From the NCBI GenBank assembly GCA_947462335.1, contig OX381704.1:122570065-122634064 (forward strand): a DNA stretch of 64,000 nt, read 5' to 3'. How positions within the stretch are numbered: the stretch's first letter is position 1; every line of letters starts with the position of its first letter. This document shows positions 23,122 through 54,132 of the stretch, piece after piece. A program made the position numbers and the translations under genes. The DNA comes from Harmothoe impar. Lineage: Eukaryota > Annelida > Polychaeta > Phyllodocida > Polynoidae. The notes beneath the pieces were generated by a model. That model saw only the letters and a list, made by a program, of their open reading frames with translations, made no database searches and was not told the DNA's origin.

Positions 23122-23127
23122 AAGGCT
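23122..23127 (+). repeat. target-site duplication, left (AAGGCT)
   Basis: AAGGCT directly precedes the left terminus of the palindrome and is repeated in direct orientation at 54,127-54,132 directly after the right terminus. Outside these six bases the two flanks are unrelated. This is the classical footprint of transposition with a 6-bp staggered cut. Confidence 0.8.
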
Positions 23128-26100
23128 AGTAGTTAGTAGTGAGGGTCAATGTCATACTTTGGTTAAATGAAGAATTTTTAGATAGAACCATAATGAATAT
23201 GGTTTTGATTCTTACATGTATGAATTGGAAATATGCTAAGGTGTCTGAATATGCAATAAAAGTCAAAGTAATGGAAATATAAATGGAGTAGTTAGAAGGT
23301 GGTTATTGGAAGATTTTCCATGATGTTCACCTAGTGTCAGTAGATGGTGAAATGTTAAAAGAAGAGGTATGGTTGGATTGGCTGAAAGGAATTACTTGAT
23401 TCTTTGTGATAACATGCCTTATGTGAAGATACATGTGTATGTGAGATTTAAGGAGGATTGGAGATCAATTAAGGGAGTAATTAAAGACTCAATATTGTAG
23501 AGTGTGGAGAATCCAAGATGGCCGCCCTCAGTGCTGGTTGCTGGCACCCAACCGGTTGACCTACATCTGGTCTGGAGCGGTTGACCTACATTTCACTTGA
23601 ATGGTGTGGCTGGGTGACTTGAATTCAGTTGGGTAATCGTGGCTCATCTGATGGCATACATGTGACTTGCAAAACAATGTTGAATGGAGTTTAACTGGGG
23701 GAGTAATTAAAGATTGAGTGTATGATACTTTTGTGTATGGAGGAGAATGCAACATGGCTGCCACCAGTGCTAGGTGCCGGCACCCCAACCAGTTGACCTA
23801 CATCTGTTTTAAAACAGTTGACCTATATTCCGTTTGAAAGATGTGGCTAAGTGAGTTTTGGTGGAAAGTCTGTTGGCATACTTGTAGCTTACAAAACAAC
23901 AATGAAATAAAATTCAATTTAATTACTTATTGAAGATAAGAAATATATGTTACTCCTTTCTATGGTAGAGAAACCAAGATGACAGTATCCGGGGGGAGTT
24001 GTTATGTCTGGTGGATAATTCAAATAATGGGGCAAACAACCACTGCACCTAGCTGACCTGTTGTCAGTTGAGTTTTGAGCGGGAAGTCAGTTGCCATGCT
24101 GTCAGAGTTTGGTTAAGGGAAAGGTTTACAGATACTATGAATATGCTTTTGATCTTTGCATGTACTTGTTGGGGAGAAGTTAAGAAATCTGAAGATGCAA
24201 TAACAGTTGAAGGAATTAAAGTATAAATGATGAAGTTGGGGTGTAGAGGTGGAATGATTTGGGGTGATTTTCAGCTGTACTCTGTGGATCGTGAAATGAT
24301 AAAACAAGAGCTAGCATTGGTTAGTTAAAGGGAATTACTGATTGCTTTAAGATATGTTTTCTGCTTTATGTCTAGATGCATAAGTATGTGATATTAAGGC
24401 TGATTGGAATCCAATTATGGGAGTAATTCAAGATTCAATGTATGCATTTCAATGTATGCTGTATAAGCATGTATTTGGCGTCCAAAACAATAATATAGTT
24501 GAATAGAATTATATCTAGAAAGTTATAATATGTTGCTCCTCTCTATAGTACAGAATCAAAGATGGAAGTACCCAGTTGCAGTTGTTATGTCTGGTGGATT
24601 ATTCAAACGATGGGGCAGACAACAACTGCACCTAGCTGACCTGTTGTCAGTTAAGTTTTGGCGGGAAGTCAGTTGACATGCTGTCATAGTTTGGTTAAAG
24701 AAGGGATTTAGAGACCAGTACAGTGAATATGTTTTTGATTGCTATGTATATATTTCTGATCAATTTTAAGCCTTAAGGTGTCTGAATATGTAATATAAGT
24801 TGAATCAAAAATATAAATAGTGTAGTTTGAGAGTGAAAGTGGGATGATTTTGGCTGACATTCCGCTAGTGTCAGTATATGCTGAAATGTTGAAAGAAAAG
24901 AATAGGTTGAATGGAATTACTTATGATTTTGAGTTATGTTGCTTCATGTGCGTATACAAATGTATTTGAGAATCAAAGTTAATTCAAGTTCAATTAAGGG
25001 AGTAATTAGAAATTAAAGTATGATACTTATGTCTATGGTAGAGAATCCAAGATGGCTGCATGCAGTGCTGGGTGCCACCACCCCAACCTACATATAGGAC
25101 TTACATATATTTTGGAGCAGTTGACCTACATTCTGTTTGAATGGTGTGACTGGGTGACCTTTAGTCAGTTAAGTTTTGGCTGGAATGATGGCATGTATGT
25201 TTGCAAAACAATTATGTACATGAATAGAATTCTATTAGGAAGTTGCTATGGATAAAGTATATGTTACCCTTATTATATGGAACAGAACCCAGGGTGGAAT
25301 TGACTAGTTGTAGTTGTTATGTCTGGTGGATTATTCAAACAATGGGGCCAACAACTAATGCACCTAGGTGACCTATTGTCAGTTGGGTTTTGGCGGCAAG
25401 TCAGTTGACATACTGTCATAGCTTAGTTATAGGAAGAATTTAGAAAGAACTAGAGAGACTATGGTCTCTATTGGTATGTGTTGGAAAAACTTATGGCAGC
25501 TGAATATGCAAGAATTAGAATATATATGCTATAGTTTGAGGCTAAAATTTGGATGATTTTGGATAATTTTCATTTATTTGAATCTTTTTAAAATTTATTT
25601 GCATATTTCGATCTCAGCAGTTTCACAACACATAAATATAGCAATCAAAGCCACATTCACATTATTCGTCTCCTTCCCTTTACCAAACTATGATAGCATG
25701 ACTTCCCACCAAAATTCAACAGACAACAAATCAACTAGGTGCATTGATTGTCTGCCCCATTATTTGAACAACCTAATTAGACATACCACCTTCCACTAGC
25801 CACTGTCATCTCAGACTGTATACCCTAAACAAGACTGACATATATTTCATTATCAACTTACTGCCCAAAACTCAACTGAATGCAAATCACCCTATAAAAC
25901 TGTTCAAACTAAATGTAAGTCAACTGTTCCAAAACAGATATGAGTCAGCTATTGGGGTGCTGGCACTTGGCCTTGGAGACAGCCATCTTGGATTCTCCAT
26001 TGTATAAGCAATAGCATACACCTAATCTTGATTACTCCCTTAATTAGACTCCAACCAACTTTAATCCTCACAAACATATGTATGCATACATGAAGCACCA

Positions 26101-26535
26101 TATCACAAATACATAATAAGTATATAAGTGTATTGTTAACTTCCCGCCCAAAACTCAACAGACTAAGTCAACTAGGTGCATTGATTCTCTGACACATTGC
26201 TTAAAATTAATAACACACATAACACCTACCACTAGCCACTTCATCTTGGACTCTGTACCTTAGACAAGAGTGACATTTGCTCCACCTTTAGCAACTGCTC
26301 AAGACTCAACTGAATGCAGCTCATATGGTCAGACTAACAGAATGTAGGTAGTGGGTGTTATGTCTGGTGGTAAGTTCAAAACAATGGGGCAGTCAGCCAG
26401 TGCACCCAGTTGACCTGTTGTCAGTTGAGTTTTGGTGGGAAGTCAGTTGACATGTATGTAGTTTGAATTGTAGCTAGCAGGTTTGAATGCTGTTTGCAGG
26501 TTATATTCATGGTATAGAATACTAGACCAACAGAG
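23128..26535. repeat. left subterminal repeats of the element
   Basis: Diverged direct repeats of roughly 580-730 bp. Landmarks are GAGAATCCAAGATGGC (23,508; 25,042), GGAGTAATTAAAGA-like words (23,475; 23,700; 24,420; 25,000), and GTTATGTCTGGTGGATTATTC with a TGCACCTAGCTGACCTGTTG clause (24,003; 24,583; 25,315). From about 25,570 the same landmarks appear in reverse orientation up to about 26,170, so the arm itself contains a smaller inverted structure. No gene is credible here. Confidence 0.75.
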
Positions 26536-29500
26536 TGGGAGGATGAGGTAGGTAGGTAAAGGGCTAGATAGATAGAGAGCTAGGTTGATTGATAACCAGG
26601 CTGATACAGAAGTAGGTAGATGAACTCGTGAAGGGAGAGGTAGAAAGATAGAGAGATAACCAGATAGAGATGTAAGCAGATAAAGAGTTTGCAAGGTAAG
26701 CAGATAGGCAGGTAGGCAGAGAGAGAAATAGGCATATAGAGAGGTAGGCAGGTGGACAGGTAGGCATGTAGGTAGGCAGATAAACAGTACGTATACAGAG
26801 AAATAGGAAGGTAGGCAGATAGGGAGGTAGGCAGATAGAGCGAGGGAGATAAGCAGATAAGGAGGTAGGTAGAGAGAGAGAGGGAGGTAGGCAGATAGGG
26901 AGGTAGGCAGATAGAGAGAAGGACGGAGGCTGATAAAGAGATAGGAAGGGAGGCAGATACAAAGGTAGGCAGATAGGGAGGTAGGCATGTAGAGAAATAG
27001 GCAGATAGAGAGGCATAAATGTAGGTAGAGGGGGATGTAGGCAGGTAGTGAGGTAGGTAGGCAAAGAGAGAGGGGGGTAGGCAGATAAAGAGGTAGGAAG
27101 GTAGGCAGATAAGGAGGTATGTAGATACAGAGGTGTGCAGATAGAGAAAGGGAAGTAGGCTGATAAAGAGGCAGGAAGGGAGACAAATAGGGATGTAGGC
27201 ATATATAAAGAAATGGGCAGATAGAAAGGAAGGCAGATAGGGAGGTAGCTAGTGAGAGGGGGAAAGTAGGTAGATAATTGCTGTAATTTCAGTTTTGAAT
27301 CAAATGTTTTGCACTCTTGCTTCTCTCTTACCCCTTGCTTTACTGAAAAACATAAAGAGCTAGATGCATAGAGAGCTAAGTCAATTGATAAGTAGAGGCA
27401 GAACTAGGTATATGAGAGAGGTAGGAAGATAGAGAGAGAAAAATAGGGAGATAGAGAGGTAGGCAGCTGGACAGATAGGAAGGTAGGCAGCTAAGTGGTA
27501 GGTACATAGAGAAATGGGGAGGTAAGAAAGTAGACAGATAGGGAGGTAGGCAGATAGAGAAGTAGGCGGATAGAGAGATAGGAATGTAGGCAGATATGGA
27601 GGAAGGTAGGCAGATGGGGAGGTAGGCAGATAGAGAGAGGGAGGTAAGCAGATAGGGAGGTAAGCATACAGAGAAATGTGCAGATAGAGGGATAGAAAGG
27701 TAGACAGACAGGGATGTAGACAGGTAGGGAGGTAGGAAGAGAGAGGGGAGTGGGCAGATAAAGAGGTAGGATGGTAGGTATATAGGGAGGTATGCATATA
27801 TAGATAAATAGGCAAATAGAAAGGTCGGGAGATAGGCAGGTAGGCAGATAGGGATGTAGCAGATAGAGAGGGAGGGAGGTAGGTAGAGATAGGAAGGTAG
27901 GCAGAGAGGGAGGTATGCATATAGATAAATAGGTAAAATAGAAAGGTAGGAAGATAGGGAGGTAGGCAGATAGGGAGGTAGCAGATAGAGGGGGGTATGT
28001 AAAGAGATAGAAAGGTAGGCAGATAGGGAGGTAGGCAGATAGATTGGTAGGAAGGTAGGCATATAAAGGGAAATAGGTAGCTAGGGAGGTGTGCATATAG
28101 ATCAATAGGCAAAGAGAAAGGTAGGAAGATAGGCAGGTAGGCAGATAGGGAGGTAGGCAGATAGAGAGAGGGAGGTAAGCAGATAGGGAAGTATGCAGAT
28201 AGAGAGAAGGAGGTAGGCTGATAAAAAGGTAGATAGGGAGGTAGGCAGATAGGGGGTAGGAAGGTAGGCAGGCAGATCTAGGATTGGATAATGCATTGTG
28301 TTGACAAATGCTTTATAAATGAGTTTAATGCACTGCGATCAGGACTGCATTCAAGCACCATGATGATCAAGGACATGATGCATTAATGCATTATGCCATC
28401 CTTAAAGGGTTAAGATATTGTAACTGGGGATGAACACCACTTACACTTTCCACTAACAATGCTAATTGTCAAGCAGCCTCCATACTCCAACTGCCATTTT
28501 AAAGAAACTGTGTGGTTATAGTTCATTTGATCATAGGCACCCAGTTGAAAATACACCTCAAGCAGTATAGGTGGTTTGAAAGCTGTCACTGTTTGGGGAC
28601 ACAGTTACAGTTACGTCGATGTTAGGGGTCACGTAAAGTAAACTACCCTGCTGGGTCACATTTGTTTATCTGCAGGGACAGAGCGGTTATTTTGATTTCC
28701 TGCACATGTGCGACCTGCTTACTGACTGAGGGTGTGGTATCAAAAACACAGGGATGGAGCCCTACATCTTTTGGTTTCCTCATAACAGACTCCTTGTCTA
28801 TCGACTCTTAAGACATCCAAGCAAAAGGAGATACAGAATAATCTCTCCATAAGACATACTGCATATATATATTATAAACAGTATTGTAAAATCAGTTTTG
28901 TGCTGTAAGAAAGGTTTTCATGCAGAGAAATGAGAAGATAGGCAGACAGAGAGGGGTAGGCACATGTATAATGAGGTGAACATGTAGAGAGATATGCAGA
29001 TAGGGAGTAGGCAGATAGAGAAATGGGCATATAGAGAGTTTGGAAGATGGCAGATAGAGAGGTATGCTGATAGAGAGGTAGGCAGATAGAGAATATGAAG
29101 AGAAAGAGGTAGGAAGGTAGGCATATAGAGAAATAGACATATAGAGAGACAGGAAGATGGGCAGATAGGGAGTAGGCAGATAGAGAAATAGGCATAGAGA
29201 GAGGTAGGAAGGTAGGCAGACAGGGATGTAGACAGGTAGGGAGGTAGGCAGATAGGTAGGAAGGTAGGCAGATAGGGAGGTATGCATATAGATAAATAGG
29301 AAATAGGCAGATAGGGATGTAGGCAGAGAGAGAGGGAGGTAGGTAGAGAGACAGGAAGGCAGGCAGATAGGGAGGTAGGCATATAGAGAAATAGGCATAG
29401 AGAGAGGTAGGAAGATAGGCAGACAGGGATGTAGACAGGTAGGGAGGTAGGCAGATAGGTAGGAAAGTAGGCAGATAGGGAGGTATGCATATAGATAAAT

Positions 29501-29906
29501 AGGGAATAGGCAGATAGGAATGTAGGCAGCTGGAGAGGGAGGTAGGTAGAGAGGCAGGAAGGCAGGCAGATAGGGAGGTAGGCATATAGAGAAATAGGCA
29601 GACAGATAGGTAGGAAGATAGGCATATAGAGAAATAGGCAGATAAATAGGTAGGAAGGTAGGCAGATAGAGCTAGGCAAATAAAGAGAGGGAGATGTGCA
29701 GATAGAGAGGTATGCAGATAGAGAGGTAGACATATAGAGAATTAGGCAGACAGAGAGGTAGGAAGGTAGGCAGATAGGGAGATGTGTAGATTGAGAATTA
29801 TGCAGACACCATATAGAGAGGTATGAAGATAGGCAGATAGGGAGTAGGCAGATATAGAGAGGGAGGTAGGCAGATAGGGAGCTATCCAGTTAGAGAGGTA
29901 AGCATA
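26536..29906. repeat. left-arm GGTAGGCAGATA-type tetranucleotide-based repeat
   Basis: Words built on GGTAGGCAGATAGGGAGG and AGGTAGGCAGATAGAGA fill 26,536-27,270, 27,360-28,280 and 28,925-29,906. They are interrupted by single-copy blocks at about 27,270-27,360 and 28,280-28,920. The tract resumes after the LINE at 35,881 and ends near 36,560. Minus-strand frames rich in YLPTSLSAYLPICLP are artefacts of the repeat. Confidence 0.9.
28280..28920. other. single-copy block inside the left-arm repeat
   Basis: No reading frame with family features. It contains GCATTAATGCATTATG-like words near 28,380. Its mirror lies at about 48,335-48,970. A similar TGCATTAATGCATCATG word occurs in host DNA at about 602, so this may be a widespread genomic repeat. 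Confidence 0.4.
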
Positions 29907-29910
29907 TAGA
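29907..29910 (+). repeat. LINE target-site duplication, left (TAGA)
   Basis: TAGA precedes the LINE and is repeated at 35,881-35,884. The uninterrupted mirror locus at 47,343-47,346 has it only once, which proves the duplication. Confidence 0.85.
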
Positions 29911-30048
29911 ACAATGCAAGATGGCGGCAACCAGCTAAGGCGCGGCAAGATCGGGCTCCTGAGATTTTGAAGGATTAACCTAAGTCAAACTAAACAGTGA
30001 GACTGGAAACTAAACAATATAAGTGTATGAACACCTAGAGAAGTCGAT
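29911..30048 (+). promoter_or_regulatory. LINE 5' leader with YY1-like site
   Basis: AAGATGGCGGC at 29,918-29,928, eight bases into the element, matches the YY1 core. Mammalian L1 carries a YY1 site at a similar position, where it sets the transcription start. An internal promoter role here is inferred from position. The leader ends at the ORF1 ATG in GATATGGC context. Confidence 0.5.
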
Positions 30049-31503
30049 ATGGCAGGAGCTGGAAGAGGAGGAGGCAGGAGACAGGCAAACAGAGCGACGA
30101 AGGAAGATGAACTACTACCGATGGACGCAAGCCCTACTGATGTCATACTAGCCGTCAACGCGCTGGCCAAACGCCTGTCACTACAAGAGACAGCCACTGT
30201 CGGCATACTGGCCACGATTAAAACACTGAATGAGACTGCTGTCAAGAACGCCAAAACCTTCGAGAGCATCCACACGAGGCTTACAGACACAGAGGGAGCC
30301 ATGGAAGGTATTACTGACTCATTAGCTGAATCTCAAAATGCCTTTAAAAAACATGCCGAGGTGTCAAGCGCCCAAACACGTATGTTGACAGCGCACCAAA
30401 ACAGATTCGAGAAGATCGACGAAGACTACAAAAAGCAAGTCGTTATTTTAGATGGTGTGGCCGAAAGTGAAGGAGAAAATCTACACACCATTATAAGTGG
30501 CTTATTTAATGACACGAGAGTAGGATGGAATATTGAGCAGGTTGAATCGGTAACGCGCATTGGCAGAACCCAGATACGAAACAACCCAAGACCAAACCGG
30601 AACCAAGATGGCGGCGCCCATGCAGGTCAGCACGAAGGAGGCAGACCACAACGTAAACAACGCATACGCTCGATCAAGGTAGTGTTTCTCAAGAAAACCG
30701 TCAAATCCGAGCTCATGAAAAGTCTCAAGTTCCTGAAACATAATGTCAAGTGGACAAATGTATCGGTGGGAGACGAATTAAATGAGAAGGAAAGACGTGA
30801 GTTTATTGATCTCCGATCGGTCTACTTCTTGGCTAAGGAATGTGGCTATGACGCAAAGCTGAGACAACGCGCTGTGATTATAGAGAGAGAAAGCTTCGCA
30901 CACTACCGCCTGAATAATCTTCCTTTTGAGGATTTGAACCTGGAACTGGCCACACAAGTCTATACTGATGATGGACTCATGTTCAGGTCGAGCCACCATA
31001 GGCTATCTAACCTCTACCCCGTCAAAATCAGTTATGACGGTAGCGACTACAATTGCGTCGAGCAGGCATATCAAGCAACGAGAGCAAAGAAATGTGGTAC
31101 CCAGAAGCTGCACGACGAAATCATGATTCAGGAATGCCCCTACGAGATGATGAATCTGTCCAAACAAGTCAAGGATAGCCAGGCTTGGGGCAAAATGGCT
31201 GAAAAGACTCTATATGACATCAACAAGATTAAATTCTCCCTCCCAGAGTTCAAGGAATACCTGCAGACCACCGAAGACCTACGGTTGTATGAAGCAAGCT
31301 TCCACCCGGTATGGGGGTGTGGGTATCACTTGGGGCAATCCGCCCAATGTGTCGACGGGAACATTCCTGGTGCAAATCTACATGGCAAGAACTTAGAGAA
31401 AATCAGAGCCGAGCAGCGCCCAGACCAGCCAGACCAACCTGATCCTCCCGAGGACGCAGAGATACAACAAGATGAAGCTGAGCAGCCCGTCCCTGATACT
31501 TGA
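30049..31503 (+). CDS. LINE ORF1 protein fused to NADAR-like domain
   Basis: A 484-residue protein. Residues 1-25 are Gly/Arg-rich (AGRGGGRRQANR). About 35-135 is heptad-like and probably coiled coil. About 138-300 resembles the RRM plus C-terminal domain of L1-type ORF1 nucleic-acid chaperones (VVILDGVAESEGEN; RSIKVVFLKK; LNEKERREFIDLRSVYFLAKE). A basic, disordered insert lies at about 180-205. Residues 305-460 match the NADAR fold seen in YbiA-type N-glycosidases: RLSNLYPVKISYDG (319-332), CVEQAYQATRAKKC with E338, LYEASFHPVWGCGYHLG with W422, and a C-terminal GANLHGKNLEKIRAEQ. The tail is Asp/Gln/Pro-rich. Known NADAR enzymes remove ADP-ribose from guanine or NAD derivatives. The usual Asp just before WGxG appears replaced in a one-residue-shorter segment, so activity is uncertain. 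The start is the first ATG of the element; the frame is intact. Confidence 0.75.
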   Translation: MAGAGRGGGRRQANRATKEDELLPMDASPTDVILAVNALAKRLSLQETATVGILATIKTLNETAVKNAKTFESIHTRLTDTEGAMEGITDSLAESQNAFKKHAEVSSAQTRMLTAHQNRFEKIDEDYKKQVVILDGVAESEGENLHTIISGLFNDTRVGWNIEQVESVTRIGRTQIRNNPRPNRNQDGGAHAGQHEGGRPQRKQRIRSIKVVFLKKTVKSELMKSLKFLKHNVKWTNVSVGDELNEKERREFIDLRSVYFLAKECGYDAKLRQRAVIIERESFAHYRLNNLPFEDLNLELATQVYTDDGLMFRSSHHRLSNLYPVKISYDGSDYNCVEQAYQATRAKKCGTQKLHDEIMIQECPYEMMNLSKQVKDSQAWGKMAEKTLYDINKIKFSLPEFKEYLQTTEDLRLYEASFHPVWGCGYHLGQSAQCVDGNIPGANLHGKNLEKIRAEQRPDQPDQPDPPEDAEIQQDEAEQPVPDT

Positions 31504-32627
31504 ATGATACAACACACTCACAGCCAACTCACCTACCTGCTTTGTAACATTTCCTGATTTAAATATTATTTTACTAATTTATGTTCTAATAAGAATTTTA
31601 TTAGATTTCACAAATTAAATAGTTAAAAGGAAAATTCTATGTATGTATGTGTATCACCTAGTTTATTCTAATAATGTGACTTACTGGTAGAAATAAACCT
31701 CAATATAATTTTAACATATAATTATATGTAATGTGTATCATGTAGTTTCACCCCATTATGTGGCTTACCGGTAGTAAAAAAACATAACTTTATAAAATCA
31801 AATTGTCAAATAAGGGTCCAACGAATCTCATTGTGAAAACATTCAGATTAAATAGCACTATAATTATCGTGAGTCAATAACTGTGTAAATATGCTGACGC
31901 TGTATACTATGTACTAGAGTATGTCCAAATTAGAATTTTATCGGACTTCATAAATTAAATAGTTAAATTGAAAATTCAACATAAGACTGAGTAGTCACAT
32001 TTGTCTACTTCATATAGACGACCTACCGGGTAGTAATTAACTTTAACTTTTAAGGAATCAATCTGTCAAATAGCGTTCACAAAATCTCATTGTAAAATGC
32101 ATTTTGGTTAAAAGCTCCGTGTTCATCATGGGTCTAAATCCAAGCATCTACATGTCATATGTGTGTATGTATTGAATATACAATGTACCGGTACTAAACA
32201 ACTTGTATGTTTTTCTGGTGATCAATATAGAATTACAATGAATCTAATGGTAGATCAAGATTGACATGCAACCCACATGGTGTCGTCGTGGGCTGTTTAC
32301 ATTATGTTTACCGGTATTTAGATGGGTAATGATGTATCTATATACTTGCTACACCTACCCAGCTCACAAAATGTAAAATGTGTATGTAACGGGAGACCCT
32401 ATTCAAGCTGATCTCCCTAGCTTGTATCGATAGTTCATGGGTGGCCAACAGAGCCGAAAACCTGTGAGGGGGGATATTATTTGGGGCTTTTTTCTTTTTT
32501 CATGTTTTTTTCACTTCGTCATAAGTTGGTCATCAAGCTCAAGACTGTATGCAGCGATGAAGACTAAGAGATCAGGCTGCTTCATGTACTTTTATTTCAT
32601 GGAAATCCTAAATCCAATCTAGGCGAG
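31504..32627 (+). other. LINE inter-ORF spacer with internal repeats
   Basis: A 1.1-kb AT-rich region without a frame. A block starting TTCTAATAAGAATTTTATTAG (31,582) recurs as CCAAATTAGAATTTTATCGG (31,924), about 342 bp on. Both are followed by CATAAATTAAATAGTTAAA-type sequence and, later, an ATCTCATTGT clause. An ACCGGTA-like core (TACCGGTAG at 31,766; TACCGGGTAG at 32,024; TACCGGTAC near 32,186; TACCGGTAT near 32,309) recurs four times. Such a long spacer is unusual for this LINE group. Confidence 0.6.
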
Positions 32628-34469
32628 ATGCCAAACTTTAAAAAGGGGTTCTCCATAGTGCACTTAAACGCCAGAAGTGTTAGAAATAAACGCACAGGAA
32701 TTAATTTGGAATTTAAAGATAAGGATATTGATATTATTTTATTTTCTGAAACATGGCTAAACGATGACGATGAGGATGGCTTGTATACTTTTCCTAGATA
32801 TAATATGTATAGACTGGATAGAGTCAGTGTGTATCGAGGAGGAGGACTATGTGCGCATGTCGATGAGGGTGTGTCATACTCGGCTGATGTACTGAGCCAC
32901 TTAAATAGATCTAACGATGACATAGAGATACAGTGGTTACTATCTTTTAAGGGGAACAGTAAGAAGACTATCGTATGTAATGTGTACCGACCCCCTGGAG
33001 GTTCATTAATTAATTTCTGTGACACAATTAAGGCACTGTTCTTGCAAGTCCAAAACCTAGCTGCTTATGAACTGTATATTTTAGGGGACTTTAATGTAAA
33101 TGTACTAGTAAATGACGCTCAAAAAGACATGTTATATGAATGTTTTGATTTGATAAATTGTAGACAACTTATTCATGAGGTTACCACTACCTCAGGGACA
33201 AATACTTGTATAGATCTCGTTTTTACAAATTGTTTAGACGTCACCTCCAGTGGGGCTTTGAACATGCATTTAAGTGACCACTTACCGGTACATGTTATTA
33301 AAAAACACGAGTATGTTAAACCGAGTTATAGGACTTTTGTTGGTAGATCTTACAGAAATTTTGATAAAAAGAAATATCTCGCTAGCTTGGAAACATGTGA
33401 CTGGACATACTTTGATGAATGTGAGGATCCAGATGAATGTTGGAACGTGTATGAGAACATGTTGAAGAGGATGTTAGACGTGCCATGCCCTGTAAAAACT
33501 TTTAAAATACAAGATAAATCTGAGCCCTGGATGACAAATTACTTAATTGAACGTTCTACTGATAAAAATAACTTACTTTTGGAAGCCAGGAACGCAGCAT
33601 GTATTGTTACATGGCGAAGAGCTAGGGATTTAAGAAATGTTGTAAACCAGGAGCTCGATGTAGCTAAAAAAAAGTATTATAGTGAACTTTCAGAAAACAA
33701 TATTAAGGATTCTAAAAATTTTTGGGCCATAATTAAAAACATAATTCCTTCAAAAAAATCAGGTTCTAAAAAAATCAATTTGGTGAATGATGAGGGCAAC
33801 CCTGTAGCAGGGGATGACACGTCAGCATTTATTAACACATTCTTCGCTCAGATTGGGCCCAAGCTGGCAGAAAAGCATAATGAACGCTTTGAGTTCAAGG
33901 GCACGAGATGTCACACAGACATGACCGACATGTTTTTCTCTGATGAAGATATCATCAAGTGTGTACAAGACCTAGACACTTCTAAGTCTTCGGCAATACA
34001 ATACTTACCAACCACTATATTTAGGGATGCTGTATTGAACAAACCCTCCAGGTTCATAAAGATAATTCGCTTGTGTGTGGAAAATGACAAATTCCCTGAC
34101 AGTTGGAAAATCGCGACAGTCACCCCCCTTCCCAAGGGCGGGGACTTGACCGATGTATCTAACTATAGGCCCATAAGTGTGCTACCTGCACCAGGAAAGA
34201 TACTTGAGCGCTTGGTTCACACGGCAATGTCTGTACACATAGAAGAAAATAATATTTTGACAAAAAAACAGGGAGGGTACCAAAAAGGAAAGTCAACTTT
34301 AGATTCGATTTCAAATTTTGTAGATGATATTTTAGAAAATAGAAATAAGGGTAATATTAGTCTGGCAGCCTTCATCGATATCAAGAAGGCTTTTGATTCC
34401 GTAAATTACATAATATTACTAAATAAATTAGAAGAATATGGGATAAGAAATAAAAACTTAGGCTCGTGA
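32628..34469 (+). CDS. LINE ORF2, 5' part: endonuclease and start of reverse transcriptase
   Basis: This part (613 residues) opens with ATG in GAGATGCC context. It contains an apurinic-type endonuclease: HLNARS with N14, SETWLN with E41, NVYRPPGG, LGDFNVNV at 152-159 and LSDHLP with D217/H218. All expected catalytic blocks are present. The linker at 230-480 is Lys/Asp-rich. Reverse transcriptase begins near 495 with TPLPKGGD, NYRPISVLPAPGKILERLV, GGYQKGKSTLDSI and motif A FIDIKKAFDSV near 582. The frame ends at TGA (34,467-34,469), just after the GIRNKNLG segment, where related enzymes continue. The remainder is in the next frame from about 34,460, so one base has been gained or lost between roughly 34,450 and 34,466. 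This is a disabling mutation in this copy unless it is a sequencing error. Confidence 0.85.
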   Translation: MPNFKKGFSIVHLNARSVRNKRTGINLEFKDKDIDIILFSETWLNDDDEDGLYTFPRYNMYRLDRVSVYRGGGLCAHVDEGVSYSADVLSHLNRSNDDIEIQWLLSFKGNSKKTIVCNVYRPPGGSLINFCDTIKALFLQVQNLAAYELYILGDFNVNVLVNDAQKDMLYECFDLINCRQLIHEVTTTSGTNTCIDLVFTNCLDVTSSGALNMHLSDHLPVHVIKKHEYVKPSYRTFVGRSYRNFDKKKYLASLETCDWTYFDECEDPDECWNVYENMLKRMLDVPCPVKTFKIQDKSEPWMTNYLIERSTDKNNLLLEARNAACIVTWRRARDLRNVVNQELDVAKKKYYSELSENNIKDSKNFWAIIKNIIPSKKSGSKKINLVNDEGNPVAGDDTSAFINTFFAQIGPKLAEKHNERFEFKGTRCHTDMTDMFFSDEDIIKCVQDLDTSKSSAIQYLPTTIFRDAVLNKPSRFIKIIRLCVENDKFPDSWKIATVTPLPKGGDLTDVSNYRPISVLPAPGKILERLVHTAMSVHIEENNILTKKQGGYQKGKSTLDSISNFVDDILENRNKGNISLAAFIDIKKAFDSVNYIILLNKLEEYGIRNKNLGS

Positions 34470-35455: not shown

Positions 35456-35880
35456 GTTAAGCCATTGACGAGATGAAATATTTTTTAAAGTAGTTTTTGT
35501 CTTAAAAGGGGGGAATTATGCGAGTGTTAAAACTAGAAGCAAATGTGCCGCTATTCTTTCAAGCAGACTATTGTTATTTTCGTGTACTAAAGTATGTGTA
35601 GAAGCAACTCATACAATGGTTGTAGCAAGCAACAGTTTAACTGACCGCTGCAATCATTAACTTTATTTCACTGAATATACGTGACAAAAAGTTCCTCTGT
35701 ACATTTATATGAGTGTAAGAATGATACAGATCTATATTAGTATGACTGACGAACAATGTACAAACACATCAAATTATCAATTTTTATTTTACATAGCATT
35801 TTGTGAGGAACAACAAGGAAAATTCGCTGTTACAAGACTCCATCTATGGTGAAATAAAGTTGAAATTATTACTTAAAAAA

Positions 35881-41491: not shown

Positions 41492-41492
41492 T

Positions 41493-41711: not shown

Positions 41712-41712
41712 A

Positions 41713-41718: not shown

Positions 41719-41789
41719 CTGAGCCTAGAGACATTCTCAACAGAGCTGAACACAGTACCAGAGAAGACACAACAAGGCAACAGATCACC

Positions 41790-42677: not shown

Positions 42678-43542
42678 GATTGTATCTGTGTGACACTTCT
42701 ATATCTAACATGTTTATTGGTATTGATAATGATTATTGTTAATGTAGTCCAGATGTATAGATGTGGGGATGATTCCAGAGTAATAAATAATGTATCATCT
42801 ACAGTTCAATACAACCCACTAGTTTGTTTTCTCTGATTTTACTAGATTAATGAAATGTTGTTATTCCCCTGTTCTCCTTTCTTTGACATCTTTTTACATT
42901 CTTGGGTCATTACTTTCTCAAATCCATCCTATGCACAACCATGTAATGTGTGATAAAGATTCCAACAACACAATGAATTTAATCAAAATACATGATCTTT
43001 AATATCTAAGTATCCAACAATCGAGGTAAGGTATACATGGCAGGAACATGCTCCTAAATGCGCATTTTCCTGCTATACAACTAAAGACAAAGGCTTAATT
43101 GCCTTTTATTATCTCCAATCATCAGGAAACTGCTGGTGTTTGTGTCAGACAACCTACTAGGTCATATATCCTTGCCAGGATAAATAAAAGAAATTACAAT
43201 ACAAAATATATGACGTCAATTGTGATTATATTGGTTATATCACTCAACTATCAATGTTATAGGAGTGTTAGCTGCATCATCACCACAGTTCAATTTCAGT
43301 TCAATTTCAGTTGTGTAGTTTCTGATGCATCAGATTTAAATCAGGTTCAACACCACTTTGTGTGTGACTTAGCCAACAGTTAGCCCAATGACATCATCTG
43401 AAATAGATAAACATTTATTATTGTTGATATTTGACATCTATTAAAACTATCCAAATACACATGATATATTACTAGTTATAAACCACACTAAATATATGAA
43501 TGTCTTAGGGCGCCAAATGGCTCCCTACTCCAGGGTTTATAC

Positions 43543-43609
43543 ATGTATACATACATACATACATACATACATACATACATACATACATACATACATACAT
43601 ACATACATA
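43543..43609. repeat. (ACAT)n microsatellite, right arm
   Basis: Longer counterpart of 39,620-39,664. It begins ACATGTATAC, a small variant, then pure ACATAC tetramers. The 24-bp difference shifts all mirror coordinates outward of this point. Confidence 0.95.
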
Positions 43610-43690
43610 GGGCTATGCTAAGTAAATATATATATATATTTATAATATTGATATCAATACGTTAGGTACATATTTAATTGGTAGTTAAAC

Positions 43691-44215
43691 TTACTTTTCT
43701 TTTGATTTCTTCTTAACATTTTCTTCATTTTTTTGTGCTTCAGCTCTTCTTAATTCCTCTTCTTTTGCCCTTTCTTTAGCAAAGCTGAGGAAATCATCTG
43801 CTCGCATCCTCTCTGCTTCTTTCATAGTGACCAGGAAAACAACCATTTCTTCCTTAGACATTGCAAATCTATCACTGTTTACTTGAGATATAAAGTAAAC
43901 AGTTGATTGCTCTAGTTTAACAACATGGTACTTCTTCAGTTTCACTCTCTCAAAAAGATGTGCAGAGCATTCATACAAACGAGCTATATCTTCAGACTTG
44001 TTGATTAAGTCCTTCCATGTGGCCAAACAAAGATAATTCTCTCTTCCATTGTTGTTGAATATCACATGCACACCACTGCCTTCTTTTTGCACAATATGAA
44101 GTCTAAGAGATGAAGATAGTTTATATTCAAACCTTATCTCTTCAGCATGGAGTTCATTTTCTGCACATGGCCACACCTTGATAGTAAGCTTAATACCTGG
44201 ACCAGATGACGCCAT
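43691..44215 (-). CDS. 174-aa protein, possible PC4-like, right arm
   Basis: Mirror of 39,013-39,537. It is intact and differs from its twin by one residue (G in place of V near residue 48). The mirrored candidate intron is 43,398-43,694, and splicing again leaves the protein unchanged. The mirrored TATA box lies at about 44,270. See the left copy for domain discussion. Confidence 0.65.
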   Translation of the reverse strand: MASSGPGIKLTIKVWPCAENELHAEEIRFEYKLSSSLRLHIVQKEGSGVHVIFNNNGRENYLCLATWKDLINKSEDIARLYECSAHLFERVKLKKYHVVKLEQSTVYFISQVNSDRFAMSKEEMVVFLVTMKEAERMRADDFLSFAKERAKEEELRRAEAQKNEENVKKKSKEK

Positions 44216-44428
44216 TGTGAATCACAGTGCAGATGAGGAGGCTATGAACTAAATCTAAGATGTCTGAGTTTTATAGCTATACAACATATGTATCCAGAGT
44301 CATGGCAAGTGTAGACTTATACAAGGGTCAAACTGAAGTAGCTATATAGTTATAAACAACTTCACTACATACTAGATTATCAGGTCGTAGGATTGCAGTG
44401 AAGGATGTATCTCTGGTCATCTGTTTAG

Positions 44429-45001
44429 TTACTTACTCCACCCATGAAACGCCCATAACCACTCCATATCAGTCATGAATGTGGTAGAATATTCACACAT
44501 AAGTTTCAAAGTGGTTCTAAAATCACTTTTTGACTCAATTGAGTGACATTTAAAAGATTTTAAATTGGCGTGTTCTCCAGCTTGGAGTAGTTCAGCATAC
44601 TCTTTTGTATTAATCACATTTACTAAACAACCATCCTCTGGGTTGTGTACATTCCCACCGCCATGTAAAACCAATGACATCGACTTTGATGTCTCATTCT
44701 GATCATTATGCCATTCCACAGCAAAATAATCTACATTGCTATTCATCATACAAGTAATAGAATGTAAACTGGATGCAAATCGATATAATTCCTCAGAAAT
44801 TATATTCATTTCTCCTCCATCCCATATTGACTTTACTTCATCCATCAGATCAGACTTTAATACAAATGTGATCAACTTAGTACTATCATAAGAAAATACG
44901 TTATTTTCTGGTACGTAATCTCCTTCCAAACAATCCATTCCATCATCTGTAGCATCTTCTAGTATTAGTAATAATTCTCCATCTCCTGTAAAGTCACCCA
45001 T
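44429..45001 (-). CDS. orphan acidic protein, 190 aa, right arm
   Basis: Mirror of 38,227-38,799. Intact, with K in place of E in the segment after GEHANL. Function unknown; see the left copy. Both copies keep an open frame, so neither has yet decayed. Confidence 0.65.
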   Translation of the reverse strand: MGDFTGDGELLLILEDATDDGMDCLEGDYVPENNVFSYDSTKLITFVLKSDLMDEVKSIWDGGEMNIISEELYRFASSLHSITCMMNSNVDYFAVEWHNDQNETSKSMSLVLHGGGNVHNPEDGCLVNVINTKEYAELLQAGEHANLKSFKCHSIESKSDFRTTLKLMCEYSTTFMTDMEWLWAFHGWSK

Positions 45002-45566
45002 TATCCTATGATGTTCAAAATAGTTTTTCTTTCATTTTCGGACAGCAACAATAGCACTGGAGGGCAAGCCAGATGTAAATGGTTGAGCCATAATCAATAA
45101 TCATTATACCATTTATCACCATCACTGTCCTCTGTGACCGGCATTTTAGAACACATTCAGTGTCTAATATGGTCCATATGATATACATATGATGCATGTG
45201 CTCATACAACTCACAGTTCTGGGTTACTTAACACAATGGTGAGTGCTTATTATGAAACATGAAGAGTTATTGTGTAGGGTGTGTGTTTGCATGTGGGTTA
45301 ACAAGTGTGTTTGAATAACCGATTTACTACACTCAGACAAAACTAATTAAAATGATGTATTGATTCATCCTTGCAGTGTACTTGATACCAAATGTGGTTG
45401 GTGTTCTCAATTTGTCATGGTCTATTCAATCCGCCTGATGTGGTTGAGGATTACACCAACACTTCCACCACCCCTCTCCAGTAGGTGATAACTTGAGCTA
45501 AAAATCTGCTGAATGACCCCATCAGAAATAATTGATTATTGTGAGTGGGATTGAGAGGTACTCCTA

Positions 45567-45945
45567 CTACTCATATAGTATGTCCATTGCAACGGCCTTG
45601 ATGCTTTTCCATCCCACACTGGTAGGGAAGCTCGTGCCATACTGCAAGCACTTCTTATTCTGGAACTGGAAATTGAAACACCTCTGTAGTGGTGGAGACT
45701 TGAAAAAATATTCAAGTGATTCAAATACATAAATGTTTAGTAGGGAATCAATGATATAATGATATACACATTTTTCAACTATTACATATTTGAATACTCA
45801 GATTAATGTGGATGTTTGTTCTAATATTCTACCTATATATACTAAAAATGTCGCAACTTACTGGATCTCCATTCTCAACAGGTCCTACTGAGAAACTGGT
45901 CTGGTCTACATCCATTGTTGGAAGTATTTCAATCAGTAAAGCCAT
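45567..45945 (-). CDS. candidate two-exon small gene, right arm
   Basis: Mirror of 37,283-37,661. Exon 1 is 45,862-45,945 and exon 2 is 45,567-45,683, with the same donor and acceptor. Same caveats as the left copy. Confidence 0.3.
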
Positions 45946-46666
45946 TTATGTTTCAGGACTAATTAGCTCCAAGTACAATTGAGTGACGCGATCGGTAAAT
46001 ATGTTAATCCAATCAACAAGAGCTGTGATTCATGTATAGTGTCTGCTCCAGTGTACAAGTGATAATACCCTAAGAGGTCTGTGATCTTCTCAAATGCCAG
46101 CTGTGTTATGAGCTCAACTCCCATGTGCATAGGTTAAGAGCATCTCCCCCCCCCCCCCCACCTTACAACCCCGTCTCAATGGGCTGTTCCATTTAACTCC
46201 CTCCACCCCATTATAATCATCACAGTGGAAACTTCCATCAGAGAACAATAGAAAATGACAGAGGAAATATCTGTTATCAATTCAACATGGCCAACATTTT
46301 ACAGTCAATTAAGTATATTGGTACTCTTCTAATTTCCCTTAATAAATAGATTTTTGAAAGAGTTGTTCAGGATGTGTTGAAATGCATAGAACTTGAAAAT
46401 CAGAAAATTAGTAAGGGATTGACCTTTTTCTTTTTTTAAAGAATTTACATCCCTAGTATGATTACCCAGATACCTAGTCAGATGACTGAGAAAAAAGCAA
46501 ACTTAAATTCTTTTGACTAGTGTTCAAAATAGCTAGAAACAGGACACACATGTGCAGGAAATCCAGTAAGTCTCTGCAGATAATCATCATGTCCCAAATG
46601 GGCAGTTTGTGTGCATAAATGTCATGAAAACTTAATGTCCCCAAACACTAGTAACTTTCAAACCCA
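45946..46666. other. right-arm single-copy block, no gene
   Basis: Mirror of 36,561-37,282, including a C-run of about 13 at 46,146-46,159. No credible frame. Confidence 0.4.
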
Positions 46667-49600
46667 TCTCTCTATATCCCTATGCTTACCTCACTATCTG
46701 CCTACCTCTATGGACTTGTCTTACTATCTACATACCTCTCTATCTGCCTACAGTTGGACAGCCTACCACCTTATCTGGCTACATCTGTCCCCTTTAAGTT
46801 TTCTATATGTCTTCCACTGTTTCCACCTACATCCCTATCTGTCTACCTCTCTTTCTGCCTCCCTATTTACTTTCTACCTTTCTATTTGTCTATCTTTCTA
46901 TTTGCTGATCTATTTATTTATTCTGAGATCATCCCCCTATCTACCTACCTGCCTACCTCTTTATCTACCTCCCTTTCTCTATCTGCCTAGCTCCATATCT
47001 GCTTACCTCCCTGTCTGCCTCCCTTCCTGCCTCTCTATCTGCCTACATCCCTTTCTATATGCCTACCTCCCTATCTCCCCCCTTCATAGCTCTCTACTTG
47101 CCTACCTGTCTATTTCTCTCTCTGCCTATTTCCCTAAATGCCTACCTCTCTATCTGCTTACCTCTCTATATTTACCTAGCTCCCTATCTGCCTACCTTCC
47201 TACCTCTCAATCTGCATATTTCTCAATCTGCCTACCTTCCTATATGTTCCTCTTCCTACCTCTCTTTGTGTCTACCTGCCTATTTCTCTATATGCCTACC
47301 TCACTATATGCCTACCTGCCTATTTCTCTATCTGACTATTTCTCTATATGCTTACCTCTCTAACTGGATAGCTCCCTATCTGCCTACCTCCCTCTCTATA
47401 TCTGCCTACTCCCTATCTGCCTATCTTCATACCTCTCTATATGGTGTCTGCATAATTCTCAATCTACACACCTCCCTATCTGCCTACCTTCCTACCTCTC
47501 TGTCTGCCTAATTCTCTATATGTCTACCTCTCTATCTGCATACCTCTCTATCTGCACATCTCCCTCTCTTTATTTGCCTAGCTCTATCTGCCTACCTTCC
47601 TACCTATTTATCTGCCTATTTCTCTATATGCCTATCTTCCTACCTATCTGTCTGCCTATTTCTCTATATGCCTACCTCCCTATCTGCCTGCCTTCCTGCC
47701 TCTCTACCTACCTCCCTCTCCAGCTGCCTACATTCCTATCTGCCTATTCCCTATTTATCTATATGCATACCTCCCTATCTGCCTACTTTCCTACCTATCT
47801 GCCTACCTCCCTACCTGTCTACATCCCTGTCTGCCTATCTTCCTACCTCTCTCTATGCCTATTTCTCTATATGCCTACCTCCCTATCTGCCTGCCTTCCT
47901 GTCTCTCTACCTACCTCCCTCTCTCTCTGCCTACATCCCTATCTGCCTATTTCCTATTTATCTATATGCATACCTCCCTATCTGCCTACCTTCCTACCTA
48001 TCTGCCTACCTCCCTACCTGTCTACATCCCTGTCTGCCTACCTTCCTACCTCTCTCTATGCCTATTTCTCTATCTGCCTACTCCCTATCTGCCCATCTTC
48101 CTGTCTCTCTATATGTCTATTTCTCTATATGCCTACCTTCCTACCTCTTTCTCTTCATATTCTCTATCTGCCTACCTCTCTATCAGCATACCTCTCTATC
48201 TGCCATCTTCCAAACTCTCTATATGCCCATTTCTCTATCTGCCTACTCCCTATCTGCATATCTCTCTACATGTTCACCTCATTATACATGTGCCTACCCC
48301 TCTCTGTCTGCCTATCTTCTCATTTCTCTGCATGAAAACCTTTCTTACAGCACAAAACTGATTTTACAATACTGTTTATAATATATATATGCAGTATGTC
48401 TTATGGAGAGATTATTCTGTATCTCCTTTTGCTTGGATGTCTTAAGAGTCGATAGACAAGGAGTCTGTTATGAGGAAACCAAAAGATGTAGGGCTCCATC
48501 CCTGTGTTTTTGATACCACACCCTCAGTCAGTAAGCAGGTCGCACATGTGCAGGAAATCAAAATAACCGCTCTGTCCCTGCAGATAAACAAATGTGACCC
48601 AGCAGGGTAGTTTACTTTACGTGACCCCTAACATCGACGTAACTGTAACTGTGTCCCCAAACAGTGACAGCTTTCAAACCACCTATACTGCTTGAGGTGT
48701 ATTTTCAACTGGGTGCCTATGATCAAATGAACTATAACCACACAGTTTCTTTAAAATGGCAGTTGGAGTATGGAGGCTGCTTGACAATTAGCATTGTTAG
48801 TGGAAAGTGTAAGTGGTGTTCATCCCCAGTTACAATATCTTAACCCTTTAAGGATGGCATAATGCATTAATGCATCATGTCCTTGATCATCATGGTGCTT
48901 GAATGCAGTCCTGATCGCAGTGCATTAAACTCATTTATAAAGCATTTGTCAACACAATGCATTATCCAATCCTAGATCTGCCTGCCTACCTTCCTACCCC
49001 CTATCTGCCTACCTCCCTATCTACCTTTTTATCAGCCTACCTCCTTCTCTCTATCTGCATACTTCCCTATCTGCTTACCTCCCTCTCTCTATCTGCCTAC
49101 CTCCCTATCTGCCTACCTGCCTATCTTCCTACCTTTCTCTTTGCCTATTGATCTATATGCACACCTCCCTAGCTACCTATTTCCCTTTATATGCCTACCT
49201 TCCTACCAATCTATCTGCCTACCTCCCTATCTGCCTACCTTTCTATCTCTTTACATACCCCCCTCTATCTGCTACCTCCCTATCTGCCTACCTCCCTATC
49301 TTCCTACCTTTCTATTTTACCTATTTATCTATATGCATACCTCCCTCTCTGCCTACCTTCCTATCTCTACCTACCTCCCTCCCTCTCTATCTGCTACATC
49401 CCTATCTGCCTACCTGCCTATCTCCCGACCTTTCTATTTGCCTATTTATCTATATATGCATACCTCCCTATATACCTACCATCCTACCTCTTTATCTGCC
49501 CACTCCCCTCTCTCTTCCTACCTCCCTACCTGTCTACATCCCTGTCTGTCTACCTTTCTATCCCTCTATCTGCACATTTCTCTGTATGCTTACCTCCCTA

Positions 49601-50717
49601 TCTGCTTACCTCCCTCTCTCTATCTGCCTACCTCCCCATCTGCCTACCTTCCTCCATATCTGCCTACATTCCTATCTCTCTATCCGCCTACTTCTCTATC
49701 TGCCTACCTCCCTATCTGTCTACTTTCTTACCTCCCCATTTCTCTATGTACCTACCACTTAGCTGCCTACCTTCCTATCTGTCCAGCTGCCTACCTCTCT
49801 ATCTCCCTATTTTTCTCTCTCTATCTTCCTACCTCTCTCATATACCTAGTTCTGCCTCTACTTATCAATTGACTTAGCTCTCTATGCATCTAGCTCTTTA
49901 TGTTTTTCAGTAAAGCAAGGGGTAAGAGAGAAGCAAGAGTGCAAAACATTTGATTCAAAACTGAAATTACAGCAATTATCTACCTACTTTCCCCCTCTCA
50001 CTAGCTACCTCCCTATCTGCCTTCCTTTCTATCTGCCCATTTCTTTATATATGCCTACATCCCTATTTGTCTCCCTTCCTGCCTCTTTATCAGCCTACTT
50101 CCCTTTCTCTATCTGCACACCTCTGTATCTACATACCTCCTTATCTGCCTACCTTCCTACCTCTTTATCTGCCTACCCCCCTCTCTCTTTGCCTACCTAC
50201 CTCACTACCTGCCTACATCCCCCTCTACCTACATTTATGCCTCTCTATCTGCCTATTTCTCTACATGCCTACCTCCCTATCTGCCTACCTTTGTATCTGC
50301 CTCCCTTCCTATCTCTTTATCAGCCTCCGTCCTTCTCTCTATCTGCCTACCTCCCTATCTGCCTACCTCCCTCTCTCTATCTACCTACCTCCTTATCTGC
50401 TTATCTCCCTCGCTCTATCTGCCTACCTCCCTATCTGCCTACCTTCCTATTTCTCTATATACGTACTGTTTATCTGCCTACCTACATGCCTACCTGTCCA
50501 CCTGCCTACCTCTCTATATGCCTATTTCTCTCTCTGCCTACCTGCCTATCTGCTTACCTTGCAAACTCTTTATCTGCTTACATCTCTATCTGGTTATCTC
50601 TCTATCTTTCTACCTCTCCCTTCACGAGTTCATCTACCTACTTCTGTATCAGCCTGGTTATCAATCAACCTAGCTCTCTATCTATCTAGCCCTTTACCTA
50701 CCTACCTCATCCTCCCA
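46667..50717. repeat. right-arm tetranucleotide-based repeat, uninterrupted
   Basis: Complement of the left-arm repeat: words such as CTGCCTACCTCCCTATCTGC. Single-copy blocks at about 48,335-48,970 and 49,895-49,985 mirror those on the left. The LINE is absent. Plus-strand YLPTSLSAYLP frames are artefacts. Confidence 0.9.
47343..47346. other. empty LINE target site
   Basis: TCTA (TAGA on the minus strand) occurs once, in the mirror of the LINE insertion point. The uninterrupted sequence here gives the pre-insertion state of the left arm. Confidence 0.85.
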
Positions 50718-53700
50718 CTCTGTTGGTCTAGTATTCTATACCATGAATATAACCTGCAAACAGCATTCAAACCTGCTAGCTACAATTCAAACTACATACA
50801 TGTCAACTGACTTCCCACCAAAACTCAACTGACAACAGGTCAACTGGGTGCACTGGCTGACTGCCCCATTGTTTTGAACTTACCACCAGACATAACACCC
50901 ACTACCTACATTCTGTTAGTCTGACCATATGAGCTGCATTCAGTTGAGTCTTGAGCAGTTGCTAAAGGTGGAGCAAATGTCACTCTTGTCTAAGGTACAG
51001 AGTCCAAGATGAAGTGGCTAGTGGTAGGTGTTATGTGTGTTATTAATTTTAAGCAATGTGTCAGAGAATCAATGCACCTAGTTGACTTAGTCTGTTGAGT
51101 TTTGGGCGGGAAGTTAACAATACACTTATATACTTATTATGTATTTGTGATATGGTGCTTCATGTATGCATACATATGTTTGTGAGGATTAAAGTTGGTT
51201 GGAGTCTAATTAAGGGAGTAATCAAGATTAGGTGTATGCTATTGCTTATACAATGGAGAATCCAAGATGGCTGTCTCCAAGGCCAAGTGCCAGCACCCCA
51301 ATAGCTGACTCATATCTGTTTTGGAACAGTTGACTTACATTTAGTTTGAACAGTTTTATAGGGTGATTTGCATTCAGTTGAGTTTTGGGCAGTAAGTTGA
51401 TAATGAAATATATGTCAGTCTTGTTTAGGGTATACAGTCTGAGATGACAGTGGCTAGTGGAAGGTGGTATGTCTAATTAGGTTGTTCAAATAATGGGGCA
51501 GACAATCAATGCACCTAGTTGATTTGTTGTCTGTTGAATTTTGGTGGGAAGTCATGCTATCATAGTTTGGTAAAGGGAAGGAGACGAATAATGTGAATGT
51601 GGCTTTGATTGCTATATTTATGTGTTGTGAAACTGCTGAGATCGAAATATGCAAATAAATTTTAAAAAGATTCAAATAAATGAAAATTATCCAAAATCAT
51701 CCAAATTTTAGCCTCAAACTATAGCATATATATTCTAATTCTTGCATATTCAGCTGCCATAAGTTTTTTCCAACACATACCAATAGAGACCATAGTCTCT
51801 CTAGTTCTTTCTAAATTCTTCCTATAACTAAGCTATGACAGTATGTCAACTGACTTGCCGCCAAAACCCAACTGACAATAGGTCACCTAGGTGCATTAGT
51901 TGTTGGCCCCATTGTTTGAATAATCCACCAGACATAACAACTACAACTAGTCAATTCCACCCTGGGTTCTGTTCCATATAATAAGGGTAACATATACTTT
52001 ATCCATAGCAACTTCCTAATAGAATTCTATTCATGTACATAATTGTTTTGCAAACATACATGCCATCATTCCAGCCAAAACTTAACTGACTAAAGGTCAC
52101 CCAGTCACACCATTCAAACAGAATGTAGGTCAACTGCTCCAAAATATATGTAAGTCCTATATGTAGGTTGGGGTGGTGGCACCCAGCACTGCATGCAGCC
52201 ATCTTGGATTCTCTACCATAGACATAAGTATCATACTTTAATTTCTAATTACTCCCTTAATTGAACTTGAATTAACTTTGATTCTCAAATACATTTGTAT
52301 ACGCACATGAAGCAACATAACTCAAAATCATAAGTAATTCCATTCAACCTATTCTTTTCTTTCAACATTTCAGCATATACTGACACTAGCGGAATGTCAG
52401 CCAAAATCATCCCACTTTCACTCTCAAACTACACTATTTATATTTTTGATTCAACTTATATTACATATTCAGACACCTTAAGGCTTAAAATTGATCAGAA
52501 ATATATACATAGCAATCAAAAACATATTCACTGTACTGGTCTCTAAATCCCTTCTTTAACCAAACTATGACAGCATGTCAACTGACTTCCCGCCAAAACT
52601 TAACTGACAACAGGTCAGCTAGGTGCAGTTGTTGTCTGCCCCATCGTTTGAATAATCCACCAGACATAACAACTGCAACTGGGTACTTCCATCTTAGATT
52701 CTGTACTATAGAGAGGAGCAACATATTATAACTTTCTAGATATAATTCTATTCAACTATATTATTGTTTTGGACGCCAAATACATGCTTATACAGCATAC
52801 ATTGAAATGCATACATTGAATCTTGAATTACTCCCATAATTGGATTCCAATCAGCCTTAATATCACATACTTATGCATCTAGACATAAAGCAGAAAACAT
52901 ATCTTAAAGCAATCAGTAATTCCCTTTAACTAACCAATGCTAGCTCTTGTTTTATCATTTCACGATCCACAGAGTACAGCTGAAAATCACCCCAAATCAT
53001 TCCACCTCTACACCCCAACTTCATCATTTATACTTTAATTCCTTCAACTGTTATTGCATCTTCAGATTTCTTAACTTCTCCCCAACAAGTACATGCAAAG
53101 ATCAAAAGCATATTCATAGTATCTGTAAACCTTTCCCTTAACCAAACTCTGACAGCATGGCAACTGACTTCCCGCTCAAAACTCAACTGACAACAGGTCA
53201 GCTAGGTGCAGTGGTTGTTTGCCCCATTATTTGAATTATCCACCAGACATAACAACTCCCCCCGGATACTGTCATCTTGGTTTCTCTACCATAGAAAGGA
53301 GTAACATATATTTCTTATCTTCAATAAGTAATTAAATTGAATTTTATTTCATTGTTGTTTTGTAAGCTACAAGTATGCCAACAGACTTTCCACCAAAACT
53401 CACTTAGCCACATCTTTCAAACGGAATATAGGTCAACTGTTTTAAAACAGATGTAGGTCAACTGGTTGGGGTGCCGGCACCTAGCACTGGTGGCAGCCAT
53501 GTTGCATTCTCCTCCATACACAAAAGTATCATACACTCAATCTTTAATTACTCCCCCAGTTAAACTCCATTCAACATTGTTTTGCAAGTCACATGTATGC
53601 CATCAGATGAGCCACGATTACCCAACTGAATTCAAGTCACCCAGCCACACCATTCAAGTGAAATGTAGGTCAACCGCTCCAGACCAGATGTAGGTCAACC

Positions 53701-54126
53701 GGTTGGGTGCCGGCACCCAGCACTGAGGGCGGCCATCTTGGATTCTCCACACTCTACAATATTGAGTCTTTAATTACTCCCTTAATTGATCTCCAATCCT
53801 CCTTAAATCTCACATACACATGTATCTTCACATAAGGCATGTTATCACAAAGAATCAAGTAATTCCTTTCAGCCAATCCAACCATACCTCTTCTTTTAAC
53901 ATTTCACCATCTACTGACACTAGGTGAACATCATGGAAAATCTTCCAATAACCACCTTCTAACTACTCCATTTATATTTCCATTACTTTGACTTTTATTG
54001 CATATTCAGACACCTTAGCATATTTCCAATTCATACATGTAAGAATCAAAACCATATTCATTATGGTTCTATCTAAAAATTCTTCATTTAACCAAAGTAT
54101 GACATTGACCCTCACTACTAACTACT
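50718..54126. repeat. right subterminal repeats of the element
   Basis: Mirror of 23,128-26,535, with the same diverged landmarks in opposite orientation and the same internal inversion near 51,680. It ends CCCTCACTACTAACTACT. One 1-bp indel relative to the left arm lies between about 51,680 and 52,000. Confidence 0.75.
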
Positions 54127-54132
54127 AAGGCT
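54127..54132 (+). repeat. target-site duplication, right (AAGGCT)
   Basis: Direct copy of 23,122-23,127, immediately outside the right terminus. Confidence 0.8.

Follow-up and report, generated by a model that had tools for sequence, protein, structure and literature searches.

Mavericks, also called Polintons, are self-synthesising transposons, and intact vertebrate copies are reported to measure 12.7-24.6 kb overall, with terminal inverted repeats (TIRs) of 46-1,447 bp, a commonest end motif of 5'-(AGT)2//(ACT)2-3', 6-bp target-site duplications and accessory regions with diverse open reading frames (ORFs) flanking the core (PMC8097293). According to the same report, Mavericks encode capsid homologues, and particles have not yet been observed (PMC8097293). 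For Galileo, a DNA transposon with target duplications of 7-8 bp, the longest copy reported from D. willistoni is 9,021 bp in length, contains no transposase segment and is bounded by TIRs measuring 4.2 and 4.7 kb (PMC4168063). Among viruses, snapback genomes are described as a major class of packaged defective adeno-associated virus (AAV) genomes, and 5' AAV snapback genomes as replicating with Rep and helper functions (PMC8235507). Here, we describe a 31-kb palindromic element in a 64,000-nucleotide stretch of the Harmothoe impar genome (contig OX381704.1), which as a whole is referred to as the window and along which all coordinates are numbered. The ends of the element place it best among Maverick-type elements, as a palindromic and non-autonomous one, whereas its gene content does not make it a Maverick.

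The palindrome and its defined ends were confirmed to be real. Self-BLAST and an arm-to-arm position list bore out the first-pass annotation of this DNA, which had described two inverted, near-identical arms of about 12.5 kb meeting at a 17-base spacer (Table 1). Self-BLAST returned two inverted blocks, one pairing 23127-29910 with 54127-47343 at 99.9% identity and the other pairing 35880-47347 with itself, centre included, at 99.3%. The left arm alone is interrupted by a long interspersed nuclear element (LINE), which, because it is present in only one arm, was certainly inserted after the palindrome existed. With the LINE omitted, the arms differ over 12,497 left-arm bases (including 5 that belong to the target duplication of the LINE and enter the count twice) by 14 substitutions, eight of them transitions, corresponding to a substitution level of about 0.11%, and by three insertion-deletion differences (indels), two of 1 bp and one of 24 bp. 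The 24-bp indel is a length change in a TATG/ATAC microsatellite (39619-39665 and 43539-43609), and it is the sole larger difference between the arms besides the LINE. The only Ns in the window, 200 in number, are located at 61240-61439, outside the palindrome. An assembly fold-back or a plain segmental inverted duplication was considered, as near-identical arms are prone to assembler error. On the evidence of the sequence, this explanation is disfavoured because the LINE is in one arm only, because the 14 substitutions and three indels are scattered between the arms, and because a 6-bp direct repeat lies outside ends of known motif; we regard it as very improbable. The annotation had likewise claimed that the structure is not an artefact, and the one-arm LINE together with the 14 point differences adds to that claim by arguing against a read fold-back.

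The two ends of the element carry the same 18 bases, AGTAGTTAGTAGTGAGGG, in inverted orientation, and no third match to this terminus with up to 3 mismatches was found in the window (expected 0.10). Directly outside, the hexamer AAGGCT abuts both ends. When the abutting k-mers were compared for k = 2 to 12, they were equal solely at k = 6, whereas random pairs of flank points agreed over 6 bases in just 59 of 200,000 draws. The annotated identical termini and 6-bp direct repeat were thus upheld, and the annotated likeness of the 5'-AG ends to those of Polinton/Maverick elements turned out to be closer than claimed, as the AG..CT ends fit the complete 5'-(AGT)2//(ACT)2-3' motif, the commonest one described in vertebrates (PMC8097293). 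The second Maverick feature, a 6-bp target-site duplication, is present as AAGGCT. The position of this duplication outside both ends indicates that a single event linked the two ends to the chromosome. Taken together, the palindrome and the duplication require either that a molecule symmetrical from the outset was inserted once or that the element was rebuilt later between its ends. Separately, the 18-base terminus was encountered in three IMG/VR contigs, where it lies internally and where nothing resembles the arm at E 1e-3; these occurrences were taken as chance.

Each arm contains three ORFs: one that encodes C2H2 zinc fingers and a C-terminal chromodomain (the finger-chromodomain ORF), and two that we refer to as ORFs B and C. 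A Pfam scan of the right arm in six frames (18 frames, with 41602-54126 searched in three overlapping pieces at a cut-off of E 0.05) yielded no Maverick polymerase B and no RVE integrase family. Only Chromo, MSL3_chromo-like and zf-C2H2 were detected at E 0.05 or better, and the Chromo match at 2.6e-7 served as an internal positive control for the scan. Pfam also gave no match in the arm to Maverick capsid, protease or ATPase, a negative that is weaker for capsids, since no check was made that its models include those of Mavericks. The first-pass annotation had stated that replication and capsid genes are absent and that every gene is carried twice; the second statement holds for all three ORFs, and the first holds for polymerase and integrase families in the right arm and is less certain for capsid.

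In our judgement, it is somewhat more likely than not that the element is a helper-dependent snap-back derivative of a Maverick, inserted as one ready-made palindrome by an integrase of Maverick type that another element provided in trans. The palindrome, the ends, the duplication, the failure to find polymerase or integrase families in the arm, and the order in which palindrome and LINE arose are observed, whereas the snap-back step, the helper and the identity of the integrase are inferred. A linear Maverick would have been copied by protein-primed strand displacement, with the growing strand folding back near the present centre and then copying itself back to its own start, which would give a linear molecule whose two ends are alike. 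Each end would thus bear an identical origin of replication and an identical site for the integrase and would be competent for copying and integration, and all genes of the other half would be lost. A helper Maverick could then copy and integrate the snap-back genome, as parents do for defective viral genomes. The 14 substitutions probably followed the duplication, as the LINE certainly did. The nonsense codon of the finger-chromodomain ORF is probably older than the duplication, since it is identical in both arms, or else it may have spread by conversion between them.

This scheme resembles AAV snapback in that one genome end is duplicated in inverted form and part of the genes of a putative larger parent genome is lost. 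It differs in that AAV uses inverted terminal repeats nicked by Rep, whereas the parent here would be protein-primed and what resulted is an insertion in a chromosome. A palindromic adenovirus-simian virus 40 (SV40) hybrid provides another precedent. The first-pass annotation had offered a giant fold-back form of a Maverick or a new class in explanation; the palindrome, the real ends and the 6-bp repeat agree with a fold-back form, and a wholly new class is unnecessary because a snap-back Maverick derivative would explain the anatomy.

Several points weigh against a snap-back Maverick derivative. The 12.5-kb arm has no detected core gene, compared to 12.7-24.6 kb for whole vertebrate Mavericks (PMC8097293), which would call for a parent of unusual size or for later swelling of the arm, 3.8 kb of which is mostly tandem array. 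The TIRs reported for vertebrate Mavericks, at 46-1,447 bp, are far shorter than the arms (PMC8097293), which unlike those TIRs make the entire body palindromic. The end motif, as noted above, was described in vertebrates (PMC8097293). Finally, the only contigs found to encode related proteins, described below, are too short to show a palindromic form and may be alleles of this locus.

The main rival explanation is that an ordinary Maverick inserted here and later suffered a break in one half, for which the other half served as repair template via the TIR, so that the palindrome was made in place and never moved as one. Such a rebuild would likewise leave the outer ends and the duplication intact, and Galileo is reported to have recruited non-TIR sequence into its TIRs (PMC4168063). 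It would, however, require roughly 12 kb of copying that ended at a 17-base asymmetric spacer, in which four of the eight opposed positions are mismatched, and that left no remnant of the other half. We consider it rather unlikely.

The arms could also belong to a fold-back element from a different superfamily of DNA transposons, mobilised in trans by a transposase of the cut-and-paste type. The element shares with Galileo and Foldback, of the P superfamily, very long TIRs that contain tandem repeats, the lack of a transposase and identical target duplications, as reported for Galileo (PMC4168063), and the arms are more than twice the length of the longest Galileo TIR in that report. In contrast to those elements, this one has a duplication of 6 bp and not 7-8 bp (PMC4168063), carries ORFs and ends in the Maverick motif. 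IS3EU/GingerRoot elements do have 6-bp duplications, but their ends are described as mostly TA..TA and occasionally TG..CA, unlike AG..CT. Dada-U6 and Dada-U1 are described as having no TIRs and Dada as targeting small RNA genes, whereas TIRs are present here and Rfam gave no match at the gathering threshold, hence no small RNA gene, in the window. On this evidence, an origin in another superfamily appears quite unlikely.

The centre of the palindrome allows a further explanation, in which the parent had an AGT-type terminus on one side and, on the other, a hairpin similar to those of parvoviruses or poxvirus telomeres, and the palindrome is an integrated head-to-head replication dimer. In its favour, nested short palindromes flank the centre, namely the 16-bp near-palindrome CCTCCGCATGCAGAGG and its mirror (41494-41509 and 41695-41710) with similar sequence closer to the centre, and a single hairpin (-74.4 kcal/mol, z -19.6) is predicted for 41540-41664 as single-stranded DNA. 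But any palindrome centre gives such a fold, and the motifs lie directly upstream of the finger-chromodomain ORF together with a TATA-like stretch, so they may instead form a putative two-way promoter serving both ORF copies, with CCTCCGCATGCAGAGG as a possible dimeric binding site. We know of no parent with one AGT-type and one hairpin end, and we hold this origin to be highly improbable.

Relatives of the arm proteins were sought among about 5.8 billion proteins. One relative of ORF B (P0001) was recovered out of 34 candidates and one of the finger-chromodomain ORF (P0002) out of 237, with none among the 83 candidates for ORF C; at the sensitivity of this search, the family looks narrow. Over 190 residues compared, P0001 shows two differences from the left-arm ORF B and three from the right-arm copy, and at the sole residue separating the arms that it can address, the left arm has the P0001 state. 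P0002 is unbroken and differs at one residue besides the stop position. Judging from these two sequences, which are encoded on two contigs of about 1.1 kb each, other copies or alleles exist, at least one of them unbroken. IMG/VR held no relative of ORF B or P0002.

It is conceivable, though we think it doubtful, that these copies belong to a standing lineage of Maverick satellites, with a 25-kb palindromic genome, every gene carried twice and identical protein-primed ends, that parasitises full Mavericks. Sister copies would then be represented by the near-identical ORFs of the two short contigs, one of these ORFs lacking the stop, and such a lineage, if true, would be a DNA-transposon counterpart of defective-interfering viruses. 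The snap-back Maverick derivative that we favour would, if true, be a chromosomally fixed fossil of Maverick replication, implying that Mavericks replicate through a linear intermediate and by strand displacement and that their integrase requires no more than two like ends, and showing that self-synthesising transposons have defective satellites. Among the papers listed in literature searches, judged by titles and the openings of abstracts, none described a palindromic or non-autonomous Maverick, and a search for phrases of this kind found no paper.

Table 1 Features of the palindromic element, in window coordinates
Feature	Position	Strand	Remarks
Target-site duplication, left copy	23122..23127	+	AAGGCT; read from sequence
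Left arm	23128..41593	+	12.5 kb plus LINE; self-BLAST and arm-to-arm position list
Left terminus	23128..23145	+	AGTAGTTAGTAGTGAGGG, 18 bases
Subterminal repeats, left arm	23128..26440	+	Mirror of right-arm 50800..54126
Left counterpart of tandem-array stretch	26646-29909 and 35880-36376		Split by LINE
LINE	29911..35879	+	Left arm only; 6.0 kb; ATAGA on both sides
LINE ORF1	30031-31503	+	NADAR domain, Pfam E 2.4e-18
LINE ORF2	32568-34469, 34454-35455	+	Two overlapping frames; endonuclease and reverse transcriptase matches
ORF B, left arm	38197..38799	+	
ORF C, left arm	39007..39537	+	
Finger-chromodomain ORF, left arm	40527..41414	-	Translation identical to right arm, same stop
Central spacer	41594..41610	.	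17 bases; position list, fold, mismatch count
Right arm	41611..54126	-	Self-BLAST and arm-to-arm position list
Finger-chromodomain ORF, right arm	41790..42677	+	295 codons; C2H2 zinc fingers and C-terminal chromodomain
ORF C, right arm	43694..44221	-	176 codons
ORF B, right arm	44432..45031	-	200 codons
Degenerate tandem arrays, right arm	46827..50618	-	Units related to AGGTAGGCAGATAGGG, non-array islands between
Subterminal repeats, right arm	50800..54126	-	3.3 kb; imperfect direct and inverted, 72-87% alike
Right terminus	54109..54126	-	Inverted AGTAGTTAGTAGTGAGGG, identical 18 bases
Target-site duplication, right copy	54127..54132	+	AAGGCT; read from sequence

From the outside inward, each arm consists of about 3.3 kb of repeats, 3.8 kb made up for the most part of degenerate tandem arrays, ORFs B and C, which point toward the centre, and the finger-chromodomain ORF, which points outward. 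The latter is interrupted by one in-frame stop, at 41937-41939 in the right arm and at the same place in the left. Its Chromo match (Pfam, E 6e-8) falls on the part downstream of the stop, and its zf-C2H2 match is also seen in the unbroken P0002. Against PDB sequences, the chromodomain ORF gave 34 matches at E <=0.1, the best at 5.3e-5, to proteins with chromodomains, CBX8 among them.

Chance is an unlikely source of ORFs B and C, as both exceed every frame obtained in 300 dinucleotide shuffles of 42700-46600, the longest of which was 143 codons, with none at 176. ORF B matched no Pfam family. A weak match of ORF C to Phage_integrase (E 0.0098) was below the Pfam cut-off and was not believed. 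For ORF C, fold searches returned nothing at E <=0.001 (best 1.6e-3, an uncharacterised phage protein) and PDB sequences nothing useful (best E 0.74). A PHROGs search was equally unhelpful (best E 0.0071, function annotated as unknown). Predicted structures, with a mean predicted local distance difference test (pLDDT) score of 31.5 for the ORF B relative and 45.4 for ORF C, were too poor for use, and no fold is claimed.

The ATAGA flanks of the LINE were read from the sequence and from the 5-base overlap of the self-BLAST blocks. The NADAR domain of its ORF1 has a reported parallel in the ORF1 proteins of Tx1 LINEs of an oyster (PMC12477816), in keeping with an invertebrate host. Beyond the palindrome, the flanks of the window are rich in unrelated minisatellite arrays (4370-6490, 16314-17707, 19208-21223 and 56622-60040), with units of 42, 29, 20 and about 43/64 bp.
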